This document shows, in pieces, positions 3,607 through 45,761 of a DNA stretch of 45,761 nucleotides. The notes below the pieces were generated by a model, which searched no databases, was not told the DNA's origin, and worked only from the letters and a program-made list of their open reading frames with translations. The stretch is from a virus: positions 1-45,761 of the IMG/VR virus record IMGVR_UViG_3300043411_000984; one strand, given 5' to 3'. Made by a program: the position numbers and the translations under genes. Every line of letters begins with the position of its first letter. The first letter of the stretch is position 1.

Positions 3607-3971
3607 CACACGCAAACAGCCGCGAAGCCTACAAGCGCCTTAACCTGACCAAATCGCAGGAAATAGTAGTGCGCGCAATCCGCCGCGAAACAATCGCCGG
3701 AAGGCCGGCAACCATTGACAGCATATTCAGGCAGTACGGGTTAATGCCGACATCCACGAGCGCCAGGATAGGCGAACTAAAGGAAATGGCCGAAGCGGGG
3801 CAGGCGTTCGAGTTGGACGGCGAAGAGTGGGCGCTCGTCCTGGTGGGCAAGCAATTAACCGCCTCGAATCGTTGGGCCGGCGCCTACAAACTGGAAAAGT
3901 TCGCCGTTGTGCGGGCGGCCTGGTTGGAGCGGAATAAAGGGGTGGGGGAACAAGCAAAACTTCAATTTTAA
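3603..3971 (+). CDS. Winged-helix/HTH-like protein
   Basis: A 122-residue protein. Residues 17-62 look like a winged helix: helix TKSQEIVVRAIRRE, then RPATIDSIFRQYGL and the presumed recognition helix TSTSARIGELKEMAE, then a short wing (GQAFELDGEEWALVLV). It would bind DNA as a phage regulator, or act as a specificity partner of the adenine methyltransferase encoded 4 bases downstream. The role is inferred only from fold-like pattern and position. Confidence 0.6.
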   Translation: MTHANSREAYKRLNLTKSQEIVVRAIRRETIAGRPATIDSIFRQYGLMPTSTSARIGELKEMAEAGQAFELDGEEWALVLVGKQLTASNRWAGAYKLEKFAVVRAAWLERNKGVGEQAKLQF

Positions 3972-3975
3972 GACG

Positions 3976-4650
3976 ATGCCAATTTCAGAGGTTTTTTGCG
4001 AAGACAACATGGCTGGGATGGCGCGGTATCCCGACGGGTATTTCCACTTGGCAATCGTCGATCCGCCGTATGGCGCAGCAGACGCCATTAACCCGGTTAG
4101 TTCTAAGAATGTGTATTCGGCTAAAAGGGGGGAATACAAAGAGTTTAAAAACGTGGCTCCCGACCCGGAGTATTTTGCGCAACTCAAAAGAGTTTCGAGG
4201 GTGCAAATTATTTGGGGCGGCAACTTTTTCCCGCAAGTTACAGGAGGAGTTATCGTATGGAATAAGAACGGCACAGCGTTCGGGGAGGCGGAGGTGGCAA
4301 TATGTACCACGCATAAAAGTGTGAAAATATTTGAATACACCTGGAACGGCATGCTTCAGCAAAACATGTCGAACAAAGAGCACCGCATCCACCCCACTCA
4401 AAAACCCGTAGCCCTCTACAAATGGCTTCTAACCAACTACGCCAAACCCGGCGACCGCATACTTGACACTCACCTCGGCAGCGGGAGCCACAGGATAGCC
4501 GCCTGGGATATGGGTTTTGACTTTTGGGCATGGGAAAACGACCCGGATTATTTCGCCGGGCAACAAAAGCGCTTTGAGGCGCATATTGCAAAGCCGGTTC
4601 TTTTTGCGCCGGAGGAAATGTACCAGTTTGAACAAGCAAAATTATTCTAA
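3976..4650 (+). CDS. DNA adenine/N4-cytosine methyltransferase (beta-class order)
   Basis: A 224-residue SAM-dependent amino-methyltransferase. The catalytic motif DPPYG is at residues 29-33, and the SAM-binding region appears late (GDRILDTHLGSGSHRIAA, about 159-176, a variant of DPFxGSG). This catalysis-first order is that of the beta class. HPTQKPVALYKWL (139-151) is the usual helix before the SAM motif. I start it at the ATG at 3976; a longer frame runs into the previous gene. It probably methylates phage DNA against host restriction. The His in place of Phe in the SAM motif is unusual. Confidence 0.88.
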   Translation: MPISEVFCEDNMAGMARYPDGYFHLAIVDPPYGAADAINPVSSKNVYSAKRGEYKEFKNVAPDPEYFAQLKRVSRVQIIWGGNFFPQVTGGVIVWNKNGTAFGEAEVAICTTHKSVKIFEYTWNGMLQQNMSNKEHRIHPTQKPVALYKWLLTNYAKPGDRILDTHLGSGSHRIAAWDMGFDFWAWENDPDYFAGQQKRFEAHIAKPVLFAPEEMYQFEQAKLF

Positions 4651-7713: not shown

Positions 7714-7944
7714 ATGCTAACCATCATCCACACCGACCGCCTAATCGAAAACCATATGCGCCGCCAAATGCAGCGAATGTTAGACGCCGGATTTTCCGAC
7801 CACAACCGGCAGTTTGTACGCTCTGCCCTGGAGCAAGCCTACCAACAAGGCCGCAGCGACGCCATGAACGGGCGCGTCGTTGAAAACATCATCCTGAAAT
7901 CCGTTATCACAGAGGACGTGATAATGCAAAGCGAGACGGCATGA
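7714..7944 (+). CDS. Small hypothetical protein
   Basis: A 76-residue frame from the ATG at 7714, one base after the helicase stop (an in-frame ATG at 7696 would overlap the helicase). It is helical and charged, with RRQMQRMLDAGFSDHNRQFVRSALEQAY. Its TGA overlaps the ATG of the methyltransferase-like gene, suggesting coupling. No family is recognised. Confidence 0.65.
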   Translation: MLTIIHTDRLIENHMRRQMQRMLDAGFSDHNRQFVRSALEQAYQQGRSDAMNGRVVENIILKSVITEDVIMQSETA

Positions 7945-8519
7945 AAAACCTTTTGGCGCTTTTTGAGATAACCGGCAACGGTTCGCAGCCGTACCGGGAG
8001 GCCGGGTGGAATGTGGTACAAGTAGACATTCAGGCCGGTATTGACATTCTGGAATGGAACTACTGCCAATACCTGCCGGATTATTTCCGGGGAATTATTG
8101 CGTTCCCGCCGTGTACGGCATACGCCGGAAGCGGGGCGCGTTGGTGGGCCGATAAGGACGCCGCAGGGGAAACCGAGTATTTCGATAGCCTGGTTCGGCG
8201 TATGCTGGAAATTATTGAATACTTCCGCCCCGGCCTGCAATTCTGGTACGCGGAAAACCCCGTCGGGAGAATCGCAAAGCGCGTTCCTGAAATCGCAAAG
8301 TATCGCCTGCTTTCATTCAACCCTTGCGAGTTCGGCGAACCGTACACAAAAAAAACAATTCTTTTCGGCGAGTTCAACCCGCTACTTGTCCGGCACCATG
8401 TTAAGCCGACCGAAGGAAGTAAGATGCACACCAAATTTGGGCCGGGGCGGAATCGGGCCAATTTACGGAGCGCAACCCCGAAAGGATTTTCAAAGGCATT
8501 TTTTGACGCAAACCAGTAA
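7941..8519 (+). CDS. C5-cytosine methyltransferase-like protein (compact)
   Basis: A 192-residue protein with hallmarks of DNA C5-cytosine methyltransferases. A SAM-site-like start reads LFEITGNGSQPYREAGW (7-23), followed by VVQVDIQ. The catalytic loop is FPPCTAYAGSG (55-65, nucleophile Cys58), and the motif IV-VI region gives AENP at 104-107. It is shorter than typical enzymes (over 300 residues) and lacks an obvious target-recognition domain. It belongs to the small phage type whose activity is often untested. It could also modify bases in another way. Confidence 0.72.
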   Translation: MKNLLALFEITGNGSQPYREAGWNVVQVDIQAGIDILEWNYCQYLPDYFRGIIAFPPCTAYAGSGARWWADKDAAGETEYFDSLVRRMLEIIEYFRPGLQFWYAENPVGRIAKRVPEIAKYRLLSFNPCEFGEPYTKKTILFGEFNPLLVRHHVKPTEGSKMHTKFGPGRNRANLRSATPKGFSKAFFDANQ

Positions 8520-9856: not shown

Positions 9857-10132
9857 ATGGCACAACCAACCAAGAAAGCGCCCGAAACGCTTTACCGATC
9901 CACTGAAACAAACGGGAAGTATTATGTTTCATATAGGGCAAAGAGCGGAAACAATCCGGCGGGCATTCCACTTGCCAGCGATACCGACCTGATTAATCTG
10001 ACAAAGGTAGGCGGGTCAACTAATGCGCCGCCATTCATTGTAACGAGCGAAGCCGATTTTAAGGCCAACTTTACCGAATATAACCCGATCAGTACAACAG
10101 GGGCAAACCCGGCAGACCGTGACGAAATTTAG
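9857..10132 (+). CDS. Hypothetical protein
   Basis: A 91-residue protein of beta-rich, low-hydrophobicity sequence (YYVSYRAKSGNNPAGIPL, then FIVTSEADFKANFTEY). No family is recognised. It overlaps the ParB-like frame by 14 bases, so the two are likely translationally coupled. Confidence 0.65.
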   Translation: MAQPTKKAPETLYRSTETNGKYYVSYRAKSGNNPAGIPLASDTDLINLTKVGGSTNAPPFIVTSEADFKANFTEYNPISTTGANPADRDEI

Positions 10133-10880
10133 GAAAACATCTGAAATACGCCTTAACCCGGCAAACCCGCGAATTATCCGGGATGAAAAGTACCGCGTAT
10201 TGGTGCGGTCGGTTGCGCAGTTTCCGAAGATGTTGGATAAGCGCGGCATTGTCGTTGATGGGTCAAAAATGATCCTGGGAGGTAATCAGCGTTGGCGGGC
10301 AATCCTGGATATTTTGAAAATGCCAGAATCCGAACTAACAGCCCTACTAAACGGAGATACCGAAACCTTTGCCCGCTGGGAGATATTGCGCGAAAAACAG
10401 GCTGTGCCGGAAAACTGGATTGTTGACGGTTCGGATATGACAGACGACGAAATCCGGCGCTTTATCATTGCCGATAATGTAGAGATGGGCGAGCACGATT
10501 GGGATATGCTGGCAAACCAATGGGATGCGGACGAGTTGTCGGATTGGGGCGTAGATGTGCCGGGGTTTGGAGAAGGCGGGGCATTTGACTACGACGATCC
10601 GGGCGGCGTTACAACGCAGGAAGCGCGGGCGACATTGGCGGAGCGGTTTATTATTCCGCCATTTTCGGTATTTGATACCCGGCAGGGATATTGGCAGACA
10701 CGCAAACGGGCATGGCTGTCTATTGGCATACGTTCCGAAATTGGACGGGGGGGGGGCATGACGTACAAGGATCACGAATGGCAGCGGGACAAGTTGGGCA
10801 AGATTCAGGCGCCAGTGGCGGTAAAAATGGCACTACACAAAGATTCGAAACAAAGAAAATCGAAATATGACAAAAGATAA
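10119..10880 (+). CDS. ParB-like nuclease/N-terminal half of a ParB-methyltransferase
   Basis: A 253-residue protein starting at GTG 10119. Residues 1-75 are a ParB/Srx-like domain (KTSEIRLNPANPRIIRDEKY and GNQRWRAI at about 55-62). Residues 175-212 contain RFIIPPFSVFDTRQGYWQ and RKRAWLSIGI, a linker I know from phage proteins in which ParB and DNA methyltransferase domains are fused. Here the frame passes through a run of ten G (10747-10756) and ends at 10880, before the methyltransferase, which is in separate frames downstream. It could be a natural split or a frameshifted gene. Confidence 0.75.
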   Translation: MTKFRKTSEIRLNPANPRIIRDEKYRVLVRSVAQFPKMLDKRGIVVDGSKMILGGNQRWRAILDILKMPESELTALLNGDTETFARWEILREKQAVPENWIVDGSDMTDDEIRRFIIADNVEMGEHDWDMLANQWDADELSDWGVDVPGFGEGGAFDYDDPGGVTTQEARATLAERFIIPPFSVFDTRQGYWQTRKRAWLSIGIRSEIGRGGGMTYKDHEWQRDKLGKIQAPVAVKMALHKDSKQRKSKYDKR

Positions 10881-10941
10881 AGCCCGGACATTTGGGCAGG
10901 ATTTAATGAGGGGCGAACATAAAATAGGGGGAGGCAGATGA
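10867..10941 (+). CDS. Short linker frame between ParB-like and methyltransferase frames
   Basis: A 24-residue frame (ATG 10867, TGA 10939-10941) reading KARTFGQDLMRGEHKIGGG. That looks like the inter-domain linker of fused ParB-methyltransferases, but it sits in a different frame from both neighbours. It overlaps the upstream stop by 14 bases and the downstream ATG by four (ATGA). It may be a relic of the fused gene or a coupled mini-gene. Confidence 0.4.
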   Translation: MTKDKARTFGQDLMRGEHKIGGGR

Positions 10942-11735
10942 GTAAGGCAACTATTAATACAAACGATTGGGCGGCTAAAAATATGCCCGAAAAGTTAGTA
11001 AAAGAAGATAACCAAACCGGGACATCCATTTTTGACCCCGTTCTTTGTGAATTGGCATACCGTTGGTTTTGTATTGATAGCGGCGCAATATTAGACCCAT
11101 TTGCGGGCGGCTCCGTTCGTGGTATTGTTGCCTCAATTCTTGGCTATCAATATACGGGCGTCGAATTACGCCATGAGCAGGTTGACGCAAACCGGGCAAA
11201 TGCGGCGGAGGTATTGACGGGCAGAGAAAGCGCGCCACCTGTTTGGCATTGCGCCGATTCGGTAACGATAAATGAACTACTAAATGGCCGGGCGTTTGAT
11301 CTTATATTTAGTTGCCCGCCGTATGCTGATCTGGAGGTTTACAGTGATTTGCCCGGCGATATTTCAAACATGGATTACCCGGCGTTTATGAGCGCATACC
11401 GGGATATAATACAAAAATCGGTAGCCCTGCTAATGCCTGACCATTTTGCTGTTTTTGTGGTTGGTGAAGTGCGGGACAAAAAAGGGTTCAACCGGGGGTT
11501 TGTGCCGGACACCATACGAGCGTTTGAGGATGCGGGCGCTAAGTTTTACAATGATATTGTTTTGATAAACGTAGCGGGCAGCCTACCAATACGGGCAGGA
11601 AAGCAGTTTGTTTCAGGCAGGAAGATTGGTAAAATGCACCAAAATATTTTAGTTTTTTACAAAGGCGACCCTAAAAAAATAAAAGACAACTACCCGGAAA
11701 TAGACCTTTCGGGGTTGCCGGAAATGGTTGAGTAA
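10938..11735 (+). CDS. DNA methyltransferase domain protein (DPFAGG/CPPY)
   Basis: A 265-residue SAM-dependent DNA amino-methyltransferase. The SAM motif DPFAGGSVRG is at 53-62, and the catalytic motif CPPY at 126-129 stands in for the usual D/N/SPPY. The block GTSIFDPVLCELAYRWFC (28-45) is typical of the phage ParB-methyltransferase family. The C-terminal part (IGKMHQNILVFYKGDPKK) is a typical beta-strand finish. SAM-first order fits the gamma/alpha type. Together with the upstream ParB-like frame it probably makes a two-part enzyme that protects phage DNA. Confidence 0.85.
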   Translation: MSKATINTNDWAAKNMPEKLVKEDNQTGTSIFDPVLCELAYRWFCIDSGAILDPFAGGSVRGIVASILGYQYTGVELRHEQVDANRANAAEVLTGRESAPPVWHCADSVTINELLNGRAFDLIFSCPPYADLEVYSDLPGDISNMDYPAFMSAYRDIIQKSVALLMPDHFAVFVVGEVRDKKGFNRGFVPDTIRAFEDAGAKFYNDIVLINVAGSLPIRAGKQFVSGRKIGKMHQNILVFYKGDPKKIKDNYPEIDLSGLPEMVE

Positions 11736-37686: not shown

Positions 37687-37729
37687 GAGCCATTTTGCGC
37701 CCTCATGGGATTGTTGTTTTTTAGATGCG

Positions 37730-37759
37730 CCCTGCCGGGATAGTCCGGCGGGGTTTTTT
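37730..37759 (+). terminator. Intrinsic terminator after HU-like gene
   Basis: CCCTGCCGG (37730-37738) pairs with CCGGCGGGG (37745-37753) with one T-G pair, loop of six, then T6. It lies 14 bases before the ATG of the peptidase, so it may attenuate lysin expression. Confidence 0.78.
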
Positions 37760-37772
37760 CAAACCTAAAAAC

Positions 37773-38153
37773 ATGGAATTAAAGCACTTTAAGCCGGCAG
37801 AATTTACGGAAGATTTGCGCCCCGTATTCGACAAAATGCACCCGGATTTCCTTCTCAAACTGGACACGTGCCGCGACCTTTGCGGCGTTCAGTTCGCTAT
37901 CACATCCTCATACCGCAGCCCGGAGAAAAACCGCCGGGTGGGCGGCGCGCCAGGTTCGATGCACCTGAAGGGTAGAGCGGTCGACATCACTTGCCCGGAC
38001 GGCGTGACGCGGGCTATAATAATGAAAACGGCGTTAACGTTGGGGCTATCCGTTGGTGTGATGCGTAACGGGTTGCACCTGGACGACCGCGAGACGCAGA
38101 TCGTTTTCCATTACTACCAAAGATATGGCGAAGGGAAAGCAGAGGATGAATAA
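37773..38153 (+). CDS. M15-type peptidase (putative endolysin)
   Basis: A 126-residue zinc peptidase of the M15 (D-Ala-D-Ala carboxypeptidase-like) family. Metal and catalytic motifs are SSYRSPEKN (45-53), SMHLKGRAVDI (62-72; His64 and Asp71) and LHLDD (101-105; His102). It would cleave peptide links in peptidoglycan for host lysis. The ATG at 37773 gives the usual start MELKHFKPAEF. There is no signal peptide, so release would need the holin. Confidence 0.88.
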   Translation: MELKHFKPAEFTEDLRPVFDKMHPDFLLKLDTCRDLCGVQFAITSSYRSPEKNRRVGGAPGSMHLKGRAVDITCPDGVTRAIIMKTALTLGLSVGVMRNGLHLDDRETQIVFHYYQRYGEGKAEDE

Positions 38154-38246: not shown

Positions 38247-38678
38247 CTATCCCTGCTTTTGCAAATGTAATTCGAGATATGCCAGCGCGGCGGCTGCGTG
38301 TTCGCTGTTGTGTTTATGCCCGGAAATATGATACCGCGTATTTCGGTAAGACATTGTAAGCCACGCCGGCAACTCCCGCAATATGTCTCCCACCGTCGGG
38401 AGATACACCAAGCCGCGAAAGTCACGGCTGTCAAAGTAGTCGTCAATTATCGGGCGACCGCCATCGACGTAGTGAACAACAGGGGATAACCCGCCTACCG
38501 GCTGCATTACCCCGTTTTCATCTTCCCAATATTTACCCGGTTGCGGGATTGTTTCGCCGAAAACAAGAACTACGCCGCTTTCATCTCCCCACCATTGCCC
38601 CGGCGCGGGGGCGGGTTGCGGGAAACCGGCGGCGGCAAGGCGGCGGGCGGTTTGTACGGTTACTGTTTGTGTGTTCAT
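38247..38678 (-). CDS. Hypothetical protein of Bacteroidetes phage type
   Basis: A 143-residue soluble protein with an N-terminal part (ARRLAAAGFPQPAPAPGQWW) and a C-terminal Leu/Trp-rich part (GDILRELPAWLTMSYRN; AAAALAYLELHL). Proteins beginning 'LAxAGFPQP' and ending this way are common but unnamed in Bacteroidetes prophages. Last gene of the leftward operon. It lies 10 bases past the preceding stop. Confidence 0.7.
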   Translation of the reverse strand: MNTQTVTVQTARRLAAAGFPQPAPAPGQWWGDESGVVLVFGETIPQPGKYWEDENGVMQPVGGLSPVVHYVDGGRPIIDDYFDSRDFRGLVYLPTVGDILRELPAWLTMSYRNTRYHISGHKHNSEHAAAALAYLELHLQKQG

Positions 38679-38688
38679 CTTTTAGATT

Positions 38689-38892
38689 TTAATGGTTTCC
38701 CTTTTTCCCCGTCTTTGCCGCTGCTTCCGCCTCCAATTGTTCAACGCGCTCCATTAGTTCACGCTCTTTCCCTTCCCATATTGCGGGAAGATTTTTAATA
38801 AGCAGCGGGCTTGCCGTGTACCCGTCGCCTATTGCATCGTTCGCGGCAATTAGCCGGGCAATAAGTTCGTCAAATACAGTTTTGATTTCCAT
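38689..38892 (-). CDS. Small helical protein
   Basis: A 67-residue helical, acidic protein ending in a basic GKKGNH (EIKTVFDELIARLIAANDAI; LMERVEQLEAEAAA coiled coil). No recognised family. It starts one base past the stop of the transglycosylase-like gene. Confidence 0.6.
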   Translation of the reverse strand: MEIKTVFDELIARLIAANDAIGDGYTASPLLIKNLPAIWEGKERELMERVEQLEAEAAAKTGKKGNH

Positions 38893-38893
38893 G

Positions 38894-39778
38894 TTATTTA
38901 GATTTTAAAAGTAACCCTTTTTTGCGCTCCAAACAAAGGTAAATCTCCCACCCCGTTATCCGGCCATCCTTCGCTCCCCGCATTATCCTATCCCCATCCT
39001 GGTACCACCCGTCCAACCCTGAATTTTTGTAATACGCCGGATTACTGAAACCGGCATAAATCACCTTTTCCGGGGTAGCGCCAATGTTGGCGGGGCTAAA
39101 AATCGCAAGGTAAAGGTCTATTGTGTTTCTCATATCTGGGCGTCCGGCTTGCTCCCATTTGCGAATCAGATACTTTTCGGTTAAGTCCATTATAAAATGG
39201 ATGTCCCGCCGGTTACAGGCCGCAATCACCTGGGGCATCGTTACCCCCAACCCGGAACACCCGACGCGGGTGAACTGAATCCATCCGGCTGCCACCCGAT
39301 CATCCCGAACGCGTAACGGATTAAGCCCGCATTCCAGCAAGGCGCTTTCGTAAATTGCCAAAGGGGTAGAATTGATCTTTGCCGCCGTTTCCGCTGTTCG
39401 CTGAATAACCACGTTAGCCTCGTAACTGTCGCAGTGTTGCCGTATCCGTGCCTCGTACAAAGCAACGGCGTGATCGGGCGTCACAGCCGTTGTGGTGGAC
39501 AAATAGACGGGGTTAGTCATATCTTCCGCCCATTGCAGCCAGGCCGAAAGTTGATCGGCAAAAAGAAAGATCAACGTTCCGAAAAAAGCCGACTTAATCC
39601 AAAAGCCTAATTTCCACACCGGCACAGCCACCCGCCGTATGACGGCGATTAATGCCGACCATGACGCCGATATGAGGCGCAATGCCTGGAGGAACGCCAC
39701 AAAGAGCAGGACGCAGACAAGCCACCGGATAGGGGCGTATGTCAACAGTATTTGGATAAGATCGGATAGGGCGGTCAT
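38894..39778 (-). CDS. Membrane-anchored transglycosylase-like protein
   Basis: A 294-residue protein. Two N-terminal hydrophobic segments (IRWLVCVLLFVAFLQAL, about 17-33; FFGTLIFLFADQL, about 65-77) are followed by a lysozyme-like domain: IYESALLECGLNP (142-154; Glu144 or Glu149 could be catalytic), AAGWIQFT (163-170, the GxxQ-type motif) and DLYLAIFSPANIG (221-233). This is the Bacteroidetes phage variant of a soluble lytic transglycosylase. Tethered to the inner membrane, it could open peptidoglycan locally or act in lysis alongside the M15 peptidase. Confidence 0.7.
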   Translation of the reverse strand: MTALSDLIQILLTYAPIRWLVCVLLFVAFLQALRLISASWSALIAVIRRVAVPVWKLGFWIKSAFFGTLIFLFADQLSAWLQWAEDMTNPVYLSTTTAVTPDHAVALYEARIRQHCDSYEANVVIQRTAETAAKINSTPLAIYESALLECGLNPLRVRDDRVAAGWIQFTRVGCSGLGVTMPQVIAACNRRDIHFIMDLTEKYLIRKWEQAGRPDMRNTIDLYLAIFSPANIGATPEKVIYAGFSNPAYYKNSGLDGWYQDGDRIMRGAKDGRITGWEIYLCLERKKGLLLKSK

Positions 39779-39788
39779 TGGTTCGTAG

Positions 39789-40019
39789 TTATTTGTGGAT
39801 AATAGGCCCGATTTCGGCTTTATAATCTGCCCAAAGTTTTGATGCTGTTCTCCCCCGAATCACCGTATTTGACAGCCATGAAGCATACGCTTTTGCCTCT
39901 TGTTCGGCGTACTCATCCATCGAAGCAAATAAGTTTTTCGCAGAATATTCATTTTCAAACTCAAAGTGGTCAAAATCAAATCCGTTTTTGTCGAGTATTT
40001 CTTTTTTTGTTAAGTCCAT
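39789..40019 (-). CDS. Small acidic hypothetical protein
   Basis: A 76-residue acidic helical protein (KEILDKNGFDFDHFEFENEY; MDEYAEQEAKAYASWL) with no membrane segment. No family is recognised. It sits 4 bases past the GIY-YIG-like gene. Confidence 0.6.
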   Translation of the reverse strand: MDLTKKEILDKNGFDFDHFEFENEYSAKNLFASMDEYAEQEAKAYASWLSNTVIRGRTASKLWADYKAEIGPIIHK

Positions 40020-40023
40020 CGTT

Positions 40024-40503
40024 TCAAATATTAAAAAGCGTTATCAAAATCATACAAAAAGCCCATGCAACGCCACAAAAAACGGCGTAATGCAGGAAGG
40101 CGGCAGTGAAAAGAACAAGCAGCCCATCTAAGGGGAGCGGGAAAAATAAGATCACCAAAATGTACCAGGGGTTAAAATCCATTCCAAACTGATCGATGGT
40201 TAACGCAACAATGTACAGCGTCCAAATATTCAGAATCCTAAACCATTCCGTTTTACCAGCGTGGGCGGGCATCTTCGCCCTGACCGAATCGAATACCCAA
40301 TGCAGCCGCTTTTCTAACCAACCCGCCCCAATGATGGGGAACGCCGCCGCCCGGCGTACAATTACCGGACGGCCTAAAGCGCGGGATAATTCGTACTCTA
40401 TTTGCGCTATCCTTTGCGGCACGTTAGTCGCTATCCCGATTTTGAACCGGGGGAGGCGCCAGGGTAAAAGCGACCATGTGAATAAGCAATAAAGCCATTT
40501 CAT
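40024..40503 (-). CDS. GIY-YIG-like (T5orf172/Mug113) domain fused to membrane helices
   Basis: A 159-residue protein. Residues 19-90 follow the pattern of the GIY-YIG superfamily T5orf172/Mug113 type: FKIGIATNVPQR (20-31; Lys-Ile-Gly), GWLEKRLHWVFDSVR (61-75; Glu64 and Leu-His) and EWFRI (86-90). The rest is hydrophobic with two to three membrane helices (WYILVILFFPLPLDGLLVLF; FCGVAWAFCMILITLF). A nuclease-like domain tethered to the membrane is unusual. It overlaps the six-segment gene by four bases. Confidence 0.65.
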   Translation of the reverse strand: MKWLYCLFTWSLLPWRLPRFKIGIATNVPQRIAQIEYELSRALGRPVIVRRAAAFPIIGAGWLEKRLHWVFDSVRAKMPAHAGKTEWFRILNIWTLYIVALTIDQFGMDFNPWYILVILFFPLPLDGLLVLFTAAFLHYAVFCGVAWAFCMILITLFNI

Positions 40504-42101
40504 CCGTGCGGAAGTTCCGGGTTATTGTTGTTGTGCGCGTATTGCGTTCTAACCGGCGTATTCCCCTTTTGTGGGCGAAAGTCCGGGTTGAACCAAATTA
40601 GTATCATATACGCAGCCCCGGCTTCAACGCAGGCCAATCCAAACAGCATACCAATAGGCCACCCGGCAACCTTCGCCCATAGGTAGATATTAATCAGTAG
40701 GATGGTTGCCGAGCCAAGCGATACAACGACAAGCGTCTTTTTTGCTATTCTGTGAATCTCCCAAAAACCCTCTTTTGCGGCAACCTTCGCCCACAGCCAG
40801 CAGATCATAAGGATCAAAACAATCATCGAAGCCAATTCCCAAAAGCCGAACATAATGACATCCCACCAAGGCTTTGCCATGCCGCCCGCCGTATTGCTAT
40901 ATTTCCAAATCTCGAATTTTGCGCGTTCGGCCATATCCACCATCGCCAGGCTATCCGGCATTTGGAAAGATTCGCCCTGCAAATCCTCAGCCGCCGCCGT
41001 CTCATTGTGCGGCCTCATGGCTGCCGCCTTGGTAACGGGCCGATCAGCAACTTCGCCCGTTTGCGAAGCCTTGTACACCGACTTGTTACCGGCCATCACG
41101 GCGAGCAATTCACCGCCACCGCTGTCGCGGTAGCCGGGTACTTTTTTCAGTAGTTCCGCGTAATTGTCGGAACCGTTGCCCTTCCGGTATATGTCGGACT
41201 GCGAAAAAATGTAAGACACGGAAACGCCGGAAGGCGGAACCTCATTACCTATTTTAGTTGCCGCTACTTTCGCGGATTTCTGCCCGAAGGCGGAAACGGA
41301 AAACAACAGGAAAACAACAAGGGATGCGCCGACCATTTCCGCGAAGGTCACAGAAGCGCGGGCCGGATTGATCGACAGTTTTTTCCGTGCCGACCATTCG
41401 CGGAAGTGCGGCGCGAAGCGGTCAATGTATGCCTGAAATTCCGTTATATCTTCCGTTGTGAAACGGGCGTTTTTCGCCACTATCCTTTGTTCGTCTGTCC
41501 AATTTTCAGTTTGAAACGGCGCGTCATCCCGCGTGAAAACTATGTCATCTTCACCCGGCCCCGTGTAGATTGTTGCACCCGGCTGGCCTTGTTTCAAAGA
41601 CACTACCCACCGGGCCGGGGTTGTTTGCTTTCTTGCAACCGCCAAACGTTCGGCATATTGTTCGTCTGTTTCGCCGGGATAAGACGCCACAAGTATATCA
41701 GGCCCAAATGCGGGCGCGAGCCATATCGTTTCAGGCAACGCCGCCGACGTATCAAAATGCAGGCGAACACCGATAATGGAAAGCAGCCGCGTTGCCGGCC
41801 CTTCCTCTGGGCCAACCGTCGGCGTAAATTCAGGCACCGACACGGCCAGGCCGCGCAATATGGCGAAGGCCAGAACGCCCGCCGTTACCGTCACGATTGT
41901 CAGGAAGATTGTGATTAACTGGTTGTGCAGTATTTCCGCGTGGGCAGGATGGGTTGCCGTAAGGTAAAGCCCGGCAACGATCAGCCCGGCGGCTATTACG
42001 ACCGGAATCATTATCCAATGCGGCCACAGGTCGCGGCGCGTTTGGATGAAATTCGTCAGGATTTGAAATTGATAGCGGAAAAGTGTTTCAATCTTGTTCA
42101 T
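40500..42101 (-). CDS. Large polytopic membrane protein, unknown function
   Basis: A 533-residue protein from the ATG at complement 42101. It has about six membrane segments: two near the N-terminus (IMIPVVIAAGLIVAGLYLT; LITIFLTIVTVTAGVLAFAI), one central (LVVFLLFSVSAFG, near 270) and three C-terminal (ELASMIVLILMICWLW; LVVVSLGSATILLINIYLW; GMLFGLACVEAGAAYMILIW). Between them lie a cytoplasmic domain (about 85-260) and a predicted periplasmic domain (about 285-415, with SGGGELLAVMAGNKSVYKAS). It matches no family I know and is the largest protein of the leftward operon. Confidence 0.65.
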   Translation of the reverse strand: MNKIETLFRYQFQILTNFIQTRRDLWPHWIMIPVVIAAGLIVAGLYLTATHPAHAEILHNQLITIFLTIVTVTAGVLAFAILRGLAVSVPEFTPTVGPEEGPATRLLSIIGVRLHFDTSAALPETIWLAPAFGPDILVASYPGETDEQYAERLAVARKQTTPARWVVSLKQGQPGATIYTGPGEDDIVFTRDDAPFQTENWTDEQRIVAKNARFTTEDITEFQAYIDRFAPHFREWSARKKLSINPARASVTFAEMVGASLVVFLLFSVSAFGQKSAKVAATKIGNEVPPSGVSVSYIFSQSDIYRKGNGSDNYAELLKKVPGYRDSGGGELLAVMAGNKSVYKASQTGEVADRPVTKAAAMRPHNETAAAEDLQGESFQMPDSLAMVDMAERAKFEIWKYSNTAGGMAKPWWDVIMFGFWELASMIVLILMICWLWAKVAAKEGFWEIHRIAKKTLVVVSLGSATILLINIYLWAKVAGWPIGMLFGLACVEAGAAYMILIWFNPDFRPQKGNTPVRTQYAHNNNNPELPHG

Positions 42102-42202
42102 AAGCACTTTTTAAGCACCTTTTTTTAAGTTGTAAGTATATTGGGGGAGTGGTTAAGTCGTTGATTTATAAAGGCTATTTGAGCACAAGCACTAAAAAGC
42201 AC
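42101..42202 (-). promoter_or_regulatory. Cluster of AGCAC (GTGCT) repeats upstream of the polytopic gene
   Basis: AGCAC occurs five times: 42103-42107, 42114-42118, 42182-42186, 42188-42192 and 42198-42202. The pairs are spaced 10-11 bases apart, at both ends of the gap before the 533-residue gene, and AT-rich sequence lies between. This resembles operator half-sites on one face of the helix. No -7 box is evident. Confidence 0.4.
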
Positions 42203-42539
42203 CGCTTTCTTTTTTTAAAGCCCTGCCAAATGCGGCATGAAGCCTTTTTGCGTAATCAATTGATATTTTGCACTGCGCTTTGATGTTTTTTATTTTGCCG
42301 CCAGCGGCAAAAATTCGCTTTGCCATTGTGTTTATTTCGGCGTTGTTCATTCCATATGCGGCAAGTTCCCGTCTGTCATGCAATGTCAATTCAGGCACGG
42401 CAGCAGGCCGAGAAGTAGATTTCAGCACCCAACCGAAAGTCTGCGTTTGCCGGTTCTCTACGAACATCGTAGAGACCTTAGCGGGCGCTTCTTGTGCCGC
42501 ATTTTCGGTATCCTTCTTTCCTGATGAGTAGATTATCAT
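42192..42539 (-). CDS. Hypothetical protein, second gene of the membrane operon
   Basis: A 115-residue soluble protein from the ATG at complement 42539, sharing that base with the stop of the upstream gene (TAATG). The C-terminal half is helical and basic (NNAEINTMAKRIFAAGGKIK; YAKRLHAAFGRALKK) and could bind DNA. The N-terminal half is polar and flexible. Confidence 0.65.
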   Translation of the reverse strand: MIIYSSGKKDTENAAQEAPAKVSTMFVENRQTQTFGWVLKSTSRPAAVPELTLHDRRELAAYGMNNAEINTMAKRIFAAGGKIKNIKAQCKISIDYAKRLHAAFGRALKKESGAF

Positions 42540-43231
42540 TAGTCTAATTTTGAATCTCTGAATAAATAAAGAGCGATAAATGACGCCGCGCAAATGAACG
42601 CGCAAAGGCTACCGGTTACCACGTTATCAACCACCGGTGTCTTAAATACTTCAAAATGCACCTTCCAAGCCGCACAGTCAACGAAAAATATAAAGGCCAG
42701 GGCATTGCCAGAGGTACGCGGCAAAGTGGCGTCTGAGGCCAACAGGAGCGCAGCCAGGACAACGATAAACACCGTTCCCCCTCCGATTTGGCCGGGAATG
42801 TCCCACAACACGGCGCAATCGTACCAGATCAACAGCCCGTGCATCACAACCACCGTAAAAAGCAGGGCCGAAATAAGGAAGCGGCGCACCTGATGAAACG
42901 ACGGCCAAACAAATTTTGCCCGCCCCGGCGCGGGGGTATTCTCGACAGCCGGGGCAGGTTGGTTAACAGGTATGGTTGAATCAGTCCGAATAATCTGTTT
43001 TGGCGGGGCCGGTTTGGCGGGAGCGGAAATAGCCGGACGCGGGGCGGAAGCGTTACCCAAAAGTATCCGCTGCTCATCTTCCGTTAATTCGGAATAAAGC
43101 GACCACTTTCCGCCGGATGGGTGTGGAAGTTCCTTTTTTGCTTTCCGCCAAAGCGTATCCGGTTTCCGGCCATACGCTTCCGCTAATTCCGTTATATTCA
43201 TCCGTTTTCCTATTTCGTGAATTTGTCCCAT
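42539..43231 (-). CDS. Membrane-tethered helix-turn-helix protein
   Basis: A 230-residue protein. The N-terminal domain (MNITELAEAYGRKPDTLWRK, then HPSGGKWSLYSELTEDEQRI) reads as an HTH followed by a short conserved-looking segment. A Pro/Ala-rich linker (about 62-98) follows, then about four membrane segments (RFLISALLFTVVVMHGLLIW; GGGTVFIVVLAALLLAS; ALAFIFFVDCAAW; VVTGSLCAFICAASFIALYL). First gene after a perfect promoter and divergent from a rightward operon. It is a plausible membrane-bound regulator sensing envelope state. Confidence 0.7.
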   Translation of the reverse strand: MGQIHEIGKRMNITELAEAYGRKPDTLWRKAKKELPHPSGGKWSLYSELTEDEQRILLGNASAPRPAISAPAKPAPPKQIIRTDSTIPVNQPAPAVENTPAPGRAKFVWPSFHQVRRFLISALLFTVVVMHGLLIWYDCAVLWDIPGQIGGGTVFIVVLAALLLASDATLPRTSGNALAFIFFVDCAAWKVHFEVFKTPVVDNVVTGSLCAFICAASFIALYLFRDSKLD

Positions 43232-43274: not shown

Positions 43275-43305
43275 CAAATGTACACGCTTAAATTTATATT
43301 CCAAA
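43275..43305 (-). promoter_or_regulatory. Leftward promoter with perfect Bacteroidetes consensus
   Basis: On the minus strand TTTG (complement 43302-43305), a 19-base spacer and TACATTTG (complement 43275-43282) match TTTG-N19-TANNTTTG exactly, followed by TGCCATG. Transcription would start near 43269, 38 bases before the ATG of the HTH-membrane gene. Confidence 0.85.
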
Positions 43306-44248: not shown

Positions 44249-44707
44249 TTAGCGGTAATTTAAAATAGAGAACGTGCCGATCTTTGCCTTTTCGCCGAAA
44301 ATGATAATGCACATCGGCAGCCAAAGACCTCGTTCTTCGTCGTTAAAATTTACTTCGCCATTGATAAATCGAATTTCTGATTTGACACAAACTTCCGCCC
44401 ACCATTTTGTATTACTTCTTACTGGAATTAAACAAACTTTCGTTCCTCCAAGTCTTCCGGCATCGTTACACGCTTTCTTTACCCACTTATTCAAGTCTCG
44501 GCTAAATGGAGGATTCATCCAGCAGTTACCCTCCCAATCCATCGAAAGGGCATTATCTTCCTTTGTCCAATAATCTGACAACTTATGGTTTAATGCACTT
44601 GCGCAGACATCTTTCGTTAAGCCGAACTCGCATATCAGTGGCTCCACTATTTTAAGTGGAGTGCTGTATTCGACACTAATGCTTGATCCGACTATCTTGG
44701 TTCCCAT
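44249..44707 (-). CDS. Phage-type DNA N6-adenine methyltransferase (Dam family)
   Basis: A 152-residue enzyme of the phage DNA N-6-adenine-methyltransferase family. Motifs: EYSTP (13-17), DVCASALNHKLSDYWTKEDN (33-52, the typical 'CASxxNxxxxxYWTxExNAL') and catalytic NPPF at 65-68. It would methylate adenine in phage DNA. Base composition is clearly more AT-rich than neighbours, with few of the CCGG/GCCG strings common elsewhere. This suggests recent acquisition. Confidence 0.88.
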   Translation of the reverse strand: MGTKIVGSSISVEYSTPLKIVEPLICEFGLTKDVCASALNHKLSDYWTKEDNALSMDWEGNCWMNPPFSRDLNKWVKKACNDAGRLGGTKVCLIPVRSNTKWWAEVCVKSEIRFINGEVNFNDEERGLWLPMCIIIFGEKAKIGTFSILNYR

Positions 44708-45493: not shown

Positions 45494-45742
45494 TCATTTG
45501 GCAGCATATTTAGCCGCTACGCTCTTTGCGCTTGCAATATCGTTTTCAGACATTGCGGTATAATCCTCATCGCCCTCAATTATTGCAATAGCGTCTTTCA
45601 TGGTCATTATTTGTTTGGCAAGGTCATCCATTTCTTTGGCGTCTACTTCGCCATTTTGGTAGTATTTGTCGGATGCGTTAATGTGTTTTGTTTTGAGGGC
45701 AGAGAGGTCTGATTTTGCGGCGGATACATTGTAGGTTGTCAT
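45494..45742 (-). CDS. Small hypothetical protein (complete copy)
   Basis: An 82-residue soluble, helical protein (SAAKSDLSALKTKHINASDK; MDDLAKQIMTMKDAIAIIEG) ending in Ala/Lys repeats. The gene spans the terminal repeat, so its first part recurs at 1-158. No family is recognised. It would be transcribed leftward from the intergenic region at about 196-227 on the circle. Confidence 0.65.
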   Translation of the reverse strand: MTTYNVSAAKSDLSALKTKHINASDKYYQNGEVDAKEMDDLAKQIMTMKDAIAIIEGDEDYTAMSENDIASAKSVAAKYAAK

Positions 45743-45761
45743 CTTGTTTTGTTTATTGCGT
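45585..45761. repeat. Terminal direct repeat, right copy
   Basis: It repeats bases 1-177 with one mismatch (C at 45634 against T at 50). Removing one copy gives a circular map of about 45,584 bp. Confidence 0.95.

Follow-up and report, generated by a model that had tools for sequence, protein, structure and literature searches.

A phage operon linking a predicted membrane nuclease to homologues of a host envelope pair: a possible superinfection-exclusion cassette

The virus record IMGVR_UViG_3300043411_000984 (45,761 nt; the whole stretch analysed, called the window below) carries an operon of eight leftward genes with a core of three: TM535, a membrane protein of 535 residues; GIY-TM, a GIY-YIG protein ending in hydrophobic helices; and TG, a predicted wall enzyme. 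TM535 and TG are homologous to two proteins that co-occur in Saprospiraceae genomes, and the trio keeps its order in a second, otherwise different phage. The operon is tentatively read as a cassette for superinfection exclusion (inter-phage defence), expressed early from a host-type promoter, in which a nuclease would be docked on proteins imitating a host envelope complex and would cut incoming DNA. The anatomy of the operon, its synteny, the homologies, the co-occurrence of the host pair and the conservation of catalytic residues are direct observations. The core genes are as follows.

40500..42107, minus strand: gene 3, TM535; N-terminal part (residues ~1-259), then a homologue of host TMC (~260-535)
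40024..40503, minus strand: gene 4, GIY-TM, 159 residues; T5orf172/GIY-YIG domain (~1-90), then hydrophobic helices; 4-nt overlap with gene 3
38894..39778, minus strand: gene 6, TG; membrane segment(s) at the N-terminus, then a predicted lytic-transglycosylase (lysozyme-fold) domain

The core trio in two phages

The second phage contig, IMGVR_UViG_3300017774_005853 (L002/L059), holds the C-terminal part of TM535 (the contig end cuts the gene), GIY-TM and TG in the order found in the window, and in both phages the trio is convergent with lysis genes. A preliminary description of the operon had named independent occurrence of its genes, with no shared neighbourhood in other phages, as the outcome that would count against a common system; what is found is a syntenic trio. 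The terminase, portal and tape measure proteins of the second phage have no similarity to the window, and besides the trio the two phages have in common only a methyltransferase, fibre-type proteins, one small secreted-type protein and a holin-like stretch. The same gene order amid unrelated packaging and tail genes indicates that the trio is kept together across different phages. The eight-gene system first proposed shrinks to TM535, GIY-TM and TG plus five genes without known relatives. The collections searched yielded these two carriers of the trio, one copy being truncated; searches of viral contigs with whole TM535, with the protein of gene 1, with a 540-aa tail protein and with the M15 peptidase returned no relatives.

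GIY-TM matches Pfam T5orf172 with 29.5 bits against a cut-off of 20, and its residues 112-159 are hydrophobic, sufficient by hydropathy for ~2-3 C-terminal helices, which bears out the GIY-YIG domain fused to membrane helices of the preliminary description. Residues Y5, KIG 21-23 (KIGI with chromosomal relatives), R31, E64 and H68, which include the catalytic ones expected of a GIY-YIG domain, are invariant in GIY-TM and its relatives (5 sequences). A search of the five host genomes first examined found no GIY-TM. Among 399 genomes of the host order there are four weak matches, three of them small GIY-YIG proteins that end in membrane helices; a phylum-wide sample of 396 genomes yielded no relative, its single match being interrupted by stop codons. 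These chromosomal proteins with C-terminal helices (L060, ~1366-1818; L061, 1348-1788; L062, 1456-1833) constitute a rare membrane-nuclease family of the host order and are solitary among ordinary genes.

TG matches phrog_196/4928 at E ~1e-8 to 1e-9 in 7/7 family members scanned, the matches being to lytic-transglycosylase parts of phage hub proteins; no Pfam family was reached. The presumed catalytic residue E149 (in LECGLNP) and a GWIQF motif (GLMQ-like) are invariant across seven sequences, and the protein is predicted to be a lytic transglycosylase of the lysozyme fold. It had been described as a two-segment protein with a transglycosylase-like domain; the domain stands, and hydropathy gives the window TG one strong membrane segment and a second below threshold, where host TG has two. 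The window protein is 43-51% identical to the second-phage and Saprospiraceae proteins (47-51% to those of the host), and a profile built on host sequences only finds it at E 3.6e-100.

TM535 has six hydrophobic segments by hydropathy, as described earlier, and is two residues longer than the 533 then given. Its N-terminal part (~1-259) comprises two membrane segments and a soluble domain. The remainder (~260-535), consisting of a former signal peptide or transmembrane segment, an outer domain and three transmembrane segments, is homologous to host TMC, the protein encoded next to TG in several Saprospiraceae, itself made up of a secreted domain and helices. A host-only TMC profile finds the second-phage copy at E 3.5e-44 and TM535 at E 1.7e-10, the best of several hundred shuffled decoys reaching E 0.041. 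The third hydrophobic segment of TM535 aligns with the signal peptide of host TMC; TM535 thus looks like a host-type TMC to which a new N-terminal part of ~259 residues has been added. A search with this part, run without a positive control, gave no match in 12 host genomes or in the second phage record.

The homologous pair in host genomes

A genome scan with two TG sequences found proteins 44-55% identical to them in Saprospiraceae genomes. In the 399 genomes of the host order (the host genomes are largely metagenome-assembled), strong matches to TG occur in eight and strong matches to TMC in the same eight; no genome has a strong match to just one of the two. Weak matches (TG in G048 and G149; TMC in G194, G230 and G366) were set aside as chance or a distant lysozyme fold. 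With four more genomes (G002, G004-G006), TG and TMC are together in 12/12 carriers, adjacent in seven and on separate contigs in five. The hypergeometric figure for this association, ~7e-17, is overstated, shared ancestry explaining part of the co-occurrence. Retention of both genes where they are unlinked points to a joint function. The host homologues are single-copy chromosomal genes, and in 8 of the 12 genomes the neighbour of TMC belongs to one gene family, three members of which were examined and are Omp85/POTRA outer-membrane proteins. The loci of this host module are L006, L007 and L049-L058, and the libraries and papers searched contain no description of a TG-TMC pair with an Omp85 gene. 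Sequence searches of the PDB with TG, TMC and GIY-TM found no match.

In linked loci, host TG begins with a lipobox-like signal (e.g. LAGCS) ahead of its membrane helices (L006, L007, L008, L017, L020, L022 and L023), whereas unlinked host TG and phage TG are without it; such a signal fits a topology with the N-terminus and the wall domain outside. One of these loci, L008 (JAKLJF010000114.1), is filed with a Thermoanaerobaculia metagenome-assembled genome and was rejected as an Acidobacteriota carrier: its neighbour genes closely match Saprospiraceae, and it is most likely a mis-binned Saprospiraceae contig. A gene for Hcp (T6SS_HCP) and one for a patatin phospholipase adjoin host TG in L004:7937-9831; they suggested that host TG belongs with a type VI system, an idea that was discarded because Hcp is present in just 1 of the 12 carrier genomes.

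Superinfection exclusion and its competitors

The sequence-based reading as an exclusion cassette runs as follows. TG, with its wall-cutting domain outside, and TM535, with its outer domain and helices, would come together in the inner membrane and there imitate, or partner, the putative host TG-TMC complex, which would lie at or close to the point at which the tail of a siphophage drives DNA across the envelope. GIY-TM would sit there on the cytoplasmic face and cut DNA as it emerges. Membrane position, not sequence, would distinguish incoming DNA from the resident genome, and the resident phage would be spared by expressing the operon solely after entry of its own DNA. The products of genes 1 and 2 are probably the operon's own regulators. 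Retention of the trio in an otherwise largely unrelated virus suggests a device for destroying competitor DNA on entry. The fully specified version, in which Saprospiraceae phages re-use two host envelope subunits as the dock for a membrane nuclease and DNA threading through is cut, is doubtful, bordering on unlikely. What speaks for exclusion is the synteny of the trio and its convergent placement by lysis genes in a second, different phage; the conserved catalytic residues of both enzymes; the profile-level homology that relates TM535 and TG to proteins of the host, calibrated with decoys; the identical sets of TG and TMC genomes, even with the genes on different contigs, and the Omp85/POTRA gene beside TMC; the setting of the operon, which is separate from the late genes, lies on the other strand and has a host-type promoter of its own; and a published precedent, SNIPE (PMC13190303).

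SNIPE (PD-lambda-1), described in 2026, is a GIY-YIG nuclease anchored in the inner membrane. It cleaves the DNA of a phage while this is being injected, is associated with ManYZ, host proteins of phage entry, and with the tape measure protein, and becomes toxic once its anchor is removed (PMC13190303). GIY-TM likewise has a GIY-YIG nuclease domain, here joined to a putative membrane anchor, and the action proposed for it, at the entry site together with inner-membrane proteins, would be similar. However, SNIPE is a bacterial single protein with an N-terminal anchor, DUF4041 and a C-terminal nuclease, whereas GIY-TM is phage-encoded, 159 residues long, has its nuclease first and its helices last, and is encoded together with TG and TM535. 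A search of the window for DUF4041 (PF13250), run without a positive control, found no match, and scanning the operon proteins permissively against Pfam gave none either; together with the reversed domain order, this indicates that the cassette is not a member of the SNIPE family.

Other comparisons are more distant. The phage superinfection-exclusion membrane proteins HK97 gp15 (cited in PMC13190303), P22 SieA and T4 Imm reportedly stop DNA entry. Compared by description, they share with the operon that phage genes encode small membrane proteins; they are not known to have a nuclease domain, or to come with a wall enzyme or homologues of a host envelope pair. Zorya, which PMC13190303 describes as acting at injection sites, combines an envelope complex with a nuclease, a logic like that proposed for the operon, but the operon has no convincing Zorya/PADLOC match and no motor-like proteins were identified in it. 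What the phage has beyond the Saprospiraceae TG-TMC-Omp85 module is the nuclease and an N-terminal domain of its own, and it is without the Omp85 gene; with the baseplate hubs of tailed phages (phrog_196) TG shares the lytic-transglycosylase domain, carried here on a short membrane protein and not on a tail component.

Several points weigh against exclusion. Its functional side (topology, complex formation, entry-site location, early expression and exclusion itself) is inferred, the topology resting on hydropathy and the positive-inside rule, and that host TG and TMC form a complex which serves as a phage entry site is an assumption. DUF4041, needed in SNIPE, is missing from the window matches. 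The chromosomal relatives of GIY-TM have no visible defence-island setting. No integrase was found among the early and flanking proteins scanned, so that a role in protecting a lysogen is not indicated. AlphaFold models of TM535 (5-row alignment) and GIY-TM (2-row) had a mean pLDDT (per-residue model confidence) of 46 and were unusable.

Two other explanations are each unlikely. In one, the operon would control lysis or disrupt the envelope: TG and TM535 would assist in opening or weakening the wall or in timing lysis, with GIY-TM as a takeover nuclease degrading host DNA near the membrane. A transglycosylase domain with a presumed catalytic glutamate fits this, as does the fact that the cassette abuts lysis genes in both phages (the M15 peptidase at 37725-38153 in the window, a chitinase-like endolysin, identified by eye, in L002). 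However, the operon runs antiparallel to the late operon and has a promoter of its own, an endolysin and a holin-like gene are already present in the phage, scans with Pfam and PHROG found no endolysin or holin family among the operon proteins, and the host homologues are single-copy genes of the chromosome and not lysis genes; lysis modules are not known to include a nuclease. The other explanation, of equally low probability, is host takeover by replacement: TG and TM535 would displace host TG and TMC from the Omp85-linked complex and thereby alter the cell surface (receptor block or a change of export), and the nuclease would merely travel along without a part in this. The direct homology to two host proteins that co-occur, the long branches of the phage proteins and retention of the host pair even where its genes are unlinked are all in keeping with displacement; the nuclease gene lying between TM535 and TG, a position kept in both phages, and the failure to see an Omp85 homologue in either phage are not.

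Quite improbable is a DNA-entry aid, with products that would serve this phage's DNA or its replication complexes at the membrane, or would process DNA taken up by the cell. DNA-uptake and conjugation machines follow a similar logic, pairing a membrane nuclease with a wall enzyme, but newly expressed products would come too late for entry of the same genome, and the operon is without pilus, ATPase or single-stranded-DNA-binding uptake genes. Chance assembly of unlinked accessory genes (morons) that act separately is just as improbable: five of the eight genes are without relatives and host TG and TMC can lie apart, yet the core keeps its order in phages that otherwise have mostly unrelated genes, and TG and TMC are together in all 12 carriers.

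Exclusion, or the blocking of injection, is a tentative best reading of the operon. The earlier proposal of an undescribed system acting at the envelope is supported as far as the libraries and papers searched go, reduced from eight genes to the trio. Beyond that proposal, two core proteins are homologous to a co-occurring host pair, and SNIPE supplies a mechanism. If exclusion is correct, phages recognise the DNA of competitors by its position at the entry site and not by sequence, and do so with a nuclease; TG, TMC and Omp85 would then be a possible DNA-entry or envelope machine in Bacteroidota, a phylum in which little is known of how phage DNA passes the inner membrane. On the fully specified version, the cassette would be a phage-borne analogue of SNIPE built from different parts and would point to an uncharacterised TG-TMC-Omp85 complex as a route of phage DNA entry in this phylum. 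Even without a role in exclusion, the matching host TG-TMC pair, its Omp85 link and the two phages make a strong pointer to a new envelope module.

The operon and its phage

The eight leftward open reading frames (43231 to 38247, minus strand) form an operon, with junctions in order of -1, 84, -4, 4, 10, 1 and 10 nt, tightly packed save for the one gap of 84 nt; the eight genes of the preliminary description are borne out, as are its perfect promoter and its terminator. The remaining features are listed here.

43275..43305, minus strand: promoter TTTG-N19-TACATTTG of the Bacteroidetes -33/-7 type; exact match, with the first ATG ~44 nt downstream
42539..43231, minus strand: gene 1, 230 residues; open reading frame with an N-terminal region resembling a helix-turn-helix (by eye only), a Pro-rich linker and 3-4 membrane segments by hydropathy
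42192..42539, minus strand: gene 2, 115 residues; soluble, basic, possibly helix-turn-helix; its ATG overlaps the gene 1 stop
39789..40019, minus strand: gene 5, 76 residues; open reading frame, acidic, soluble, between core genes; no family found
38689..38892, minus strand: gene 7, 67 residues; open reading frame; no convincing family
38247..38678, minus strand: gene 8, 143 residues; open reading frame; no relative in phage records
38152..38184, minus strand: intrinsic terminator of the operon; stem-loop plus U6, -17 kcal/mol, z -3.2 (scan 38190-38140)

The promoter is the sole exact N19 match in the window. Shuffling gives an expectation of 0.24 such matches, with at least one in 22 of 100 shuffles; the weight of the call comes from its position ~44 nt before the first ATG, not from rarity. 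The G+C content of the operon (50.8%, against 51.2% for the genome) provides no compositional sign of recent import, and trees, with their long phage branches, are compatible with one or with two acquisitions of the phage genes. Gene 1, earlier given four membrane segments, has three that are clear and a fourth that is weak; viral contigs and phage records contain no relative of it. It has a weak PADLOC match to a two-transmembrane effector (E 0.006), the only PADLOC family, Zorya and other systems included, to appear at E<=0.1. Gene 2 most likely starts at the ATG at 42539 (115 residues, TAATG overlap with gene 1) rather than at a TTG (137 residues), and phage records hold no relatives of it. 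The five proteins outside the core (genes 1, 2, 5, 7 and 8) have no convincing Pfam, NCBIfam, PADLOC or PHROG family, and no family in these four libraries covers the complete set, in agreement with the earlier statement that it is unlike known modules. The M15 peptidase of the phage (37725-38153) lies outside the operon.

A direct terminal repeat of 177 bp with one mismatch (1-177 versus 45585-45761) shows the genome to be essentially complete, at ~45.6 kb; the repeat overlap falls inside a small leftward gene. The virus is a siphophage. Its rightward early genes encode an Erf annealing protein, SSB, NinB, a replication initiator, DnaB helicase and several DNA methyltransferases, and its rightward late genes terminase, portal, tail and lysis proteins. 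The closest named terminases are mostly from Bacteroidetes phages, with identities of 32-48% that extend across some or most of the protein, and by gene homology the host is an environmental member of the Bacteroidota, probably of the family Saprospiraceae.

For a phage of 45.6 kb, DNA methyltransferase genes are numerous: there are at least four (3907-4650, 7941-8519, 10938-11735 and 44249-44707), the first encoding a protein with 60% identity to one of the second phage, and a further ParB/methyltransferase-type protein is encoded at 10119-10880. Heavy methylation could also shield the genome of the phage against nucleases, among them the one that it encodes itself. A 661-aa protein of the second phage (L002:3106-5091) apparently fuses, by eye, a holin-like membrane region to a subtilisin-like protease domain, and its gene adjoins that of a chitinase-type endolysin, also recognised by eye.

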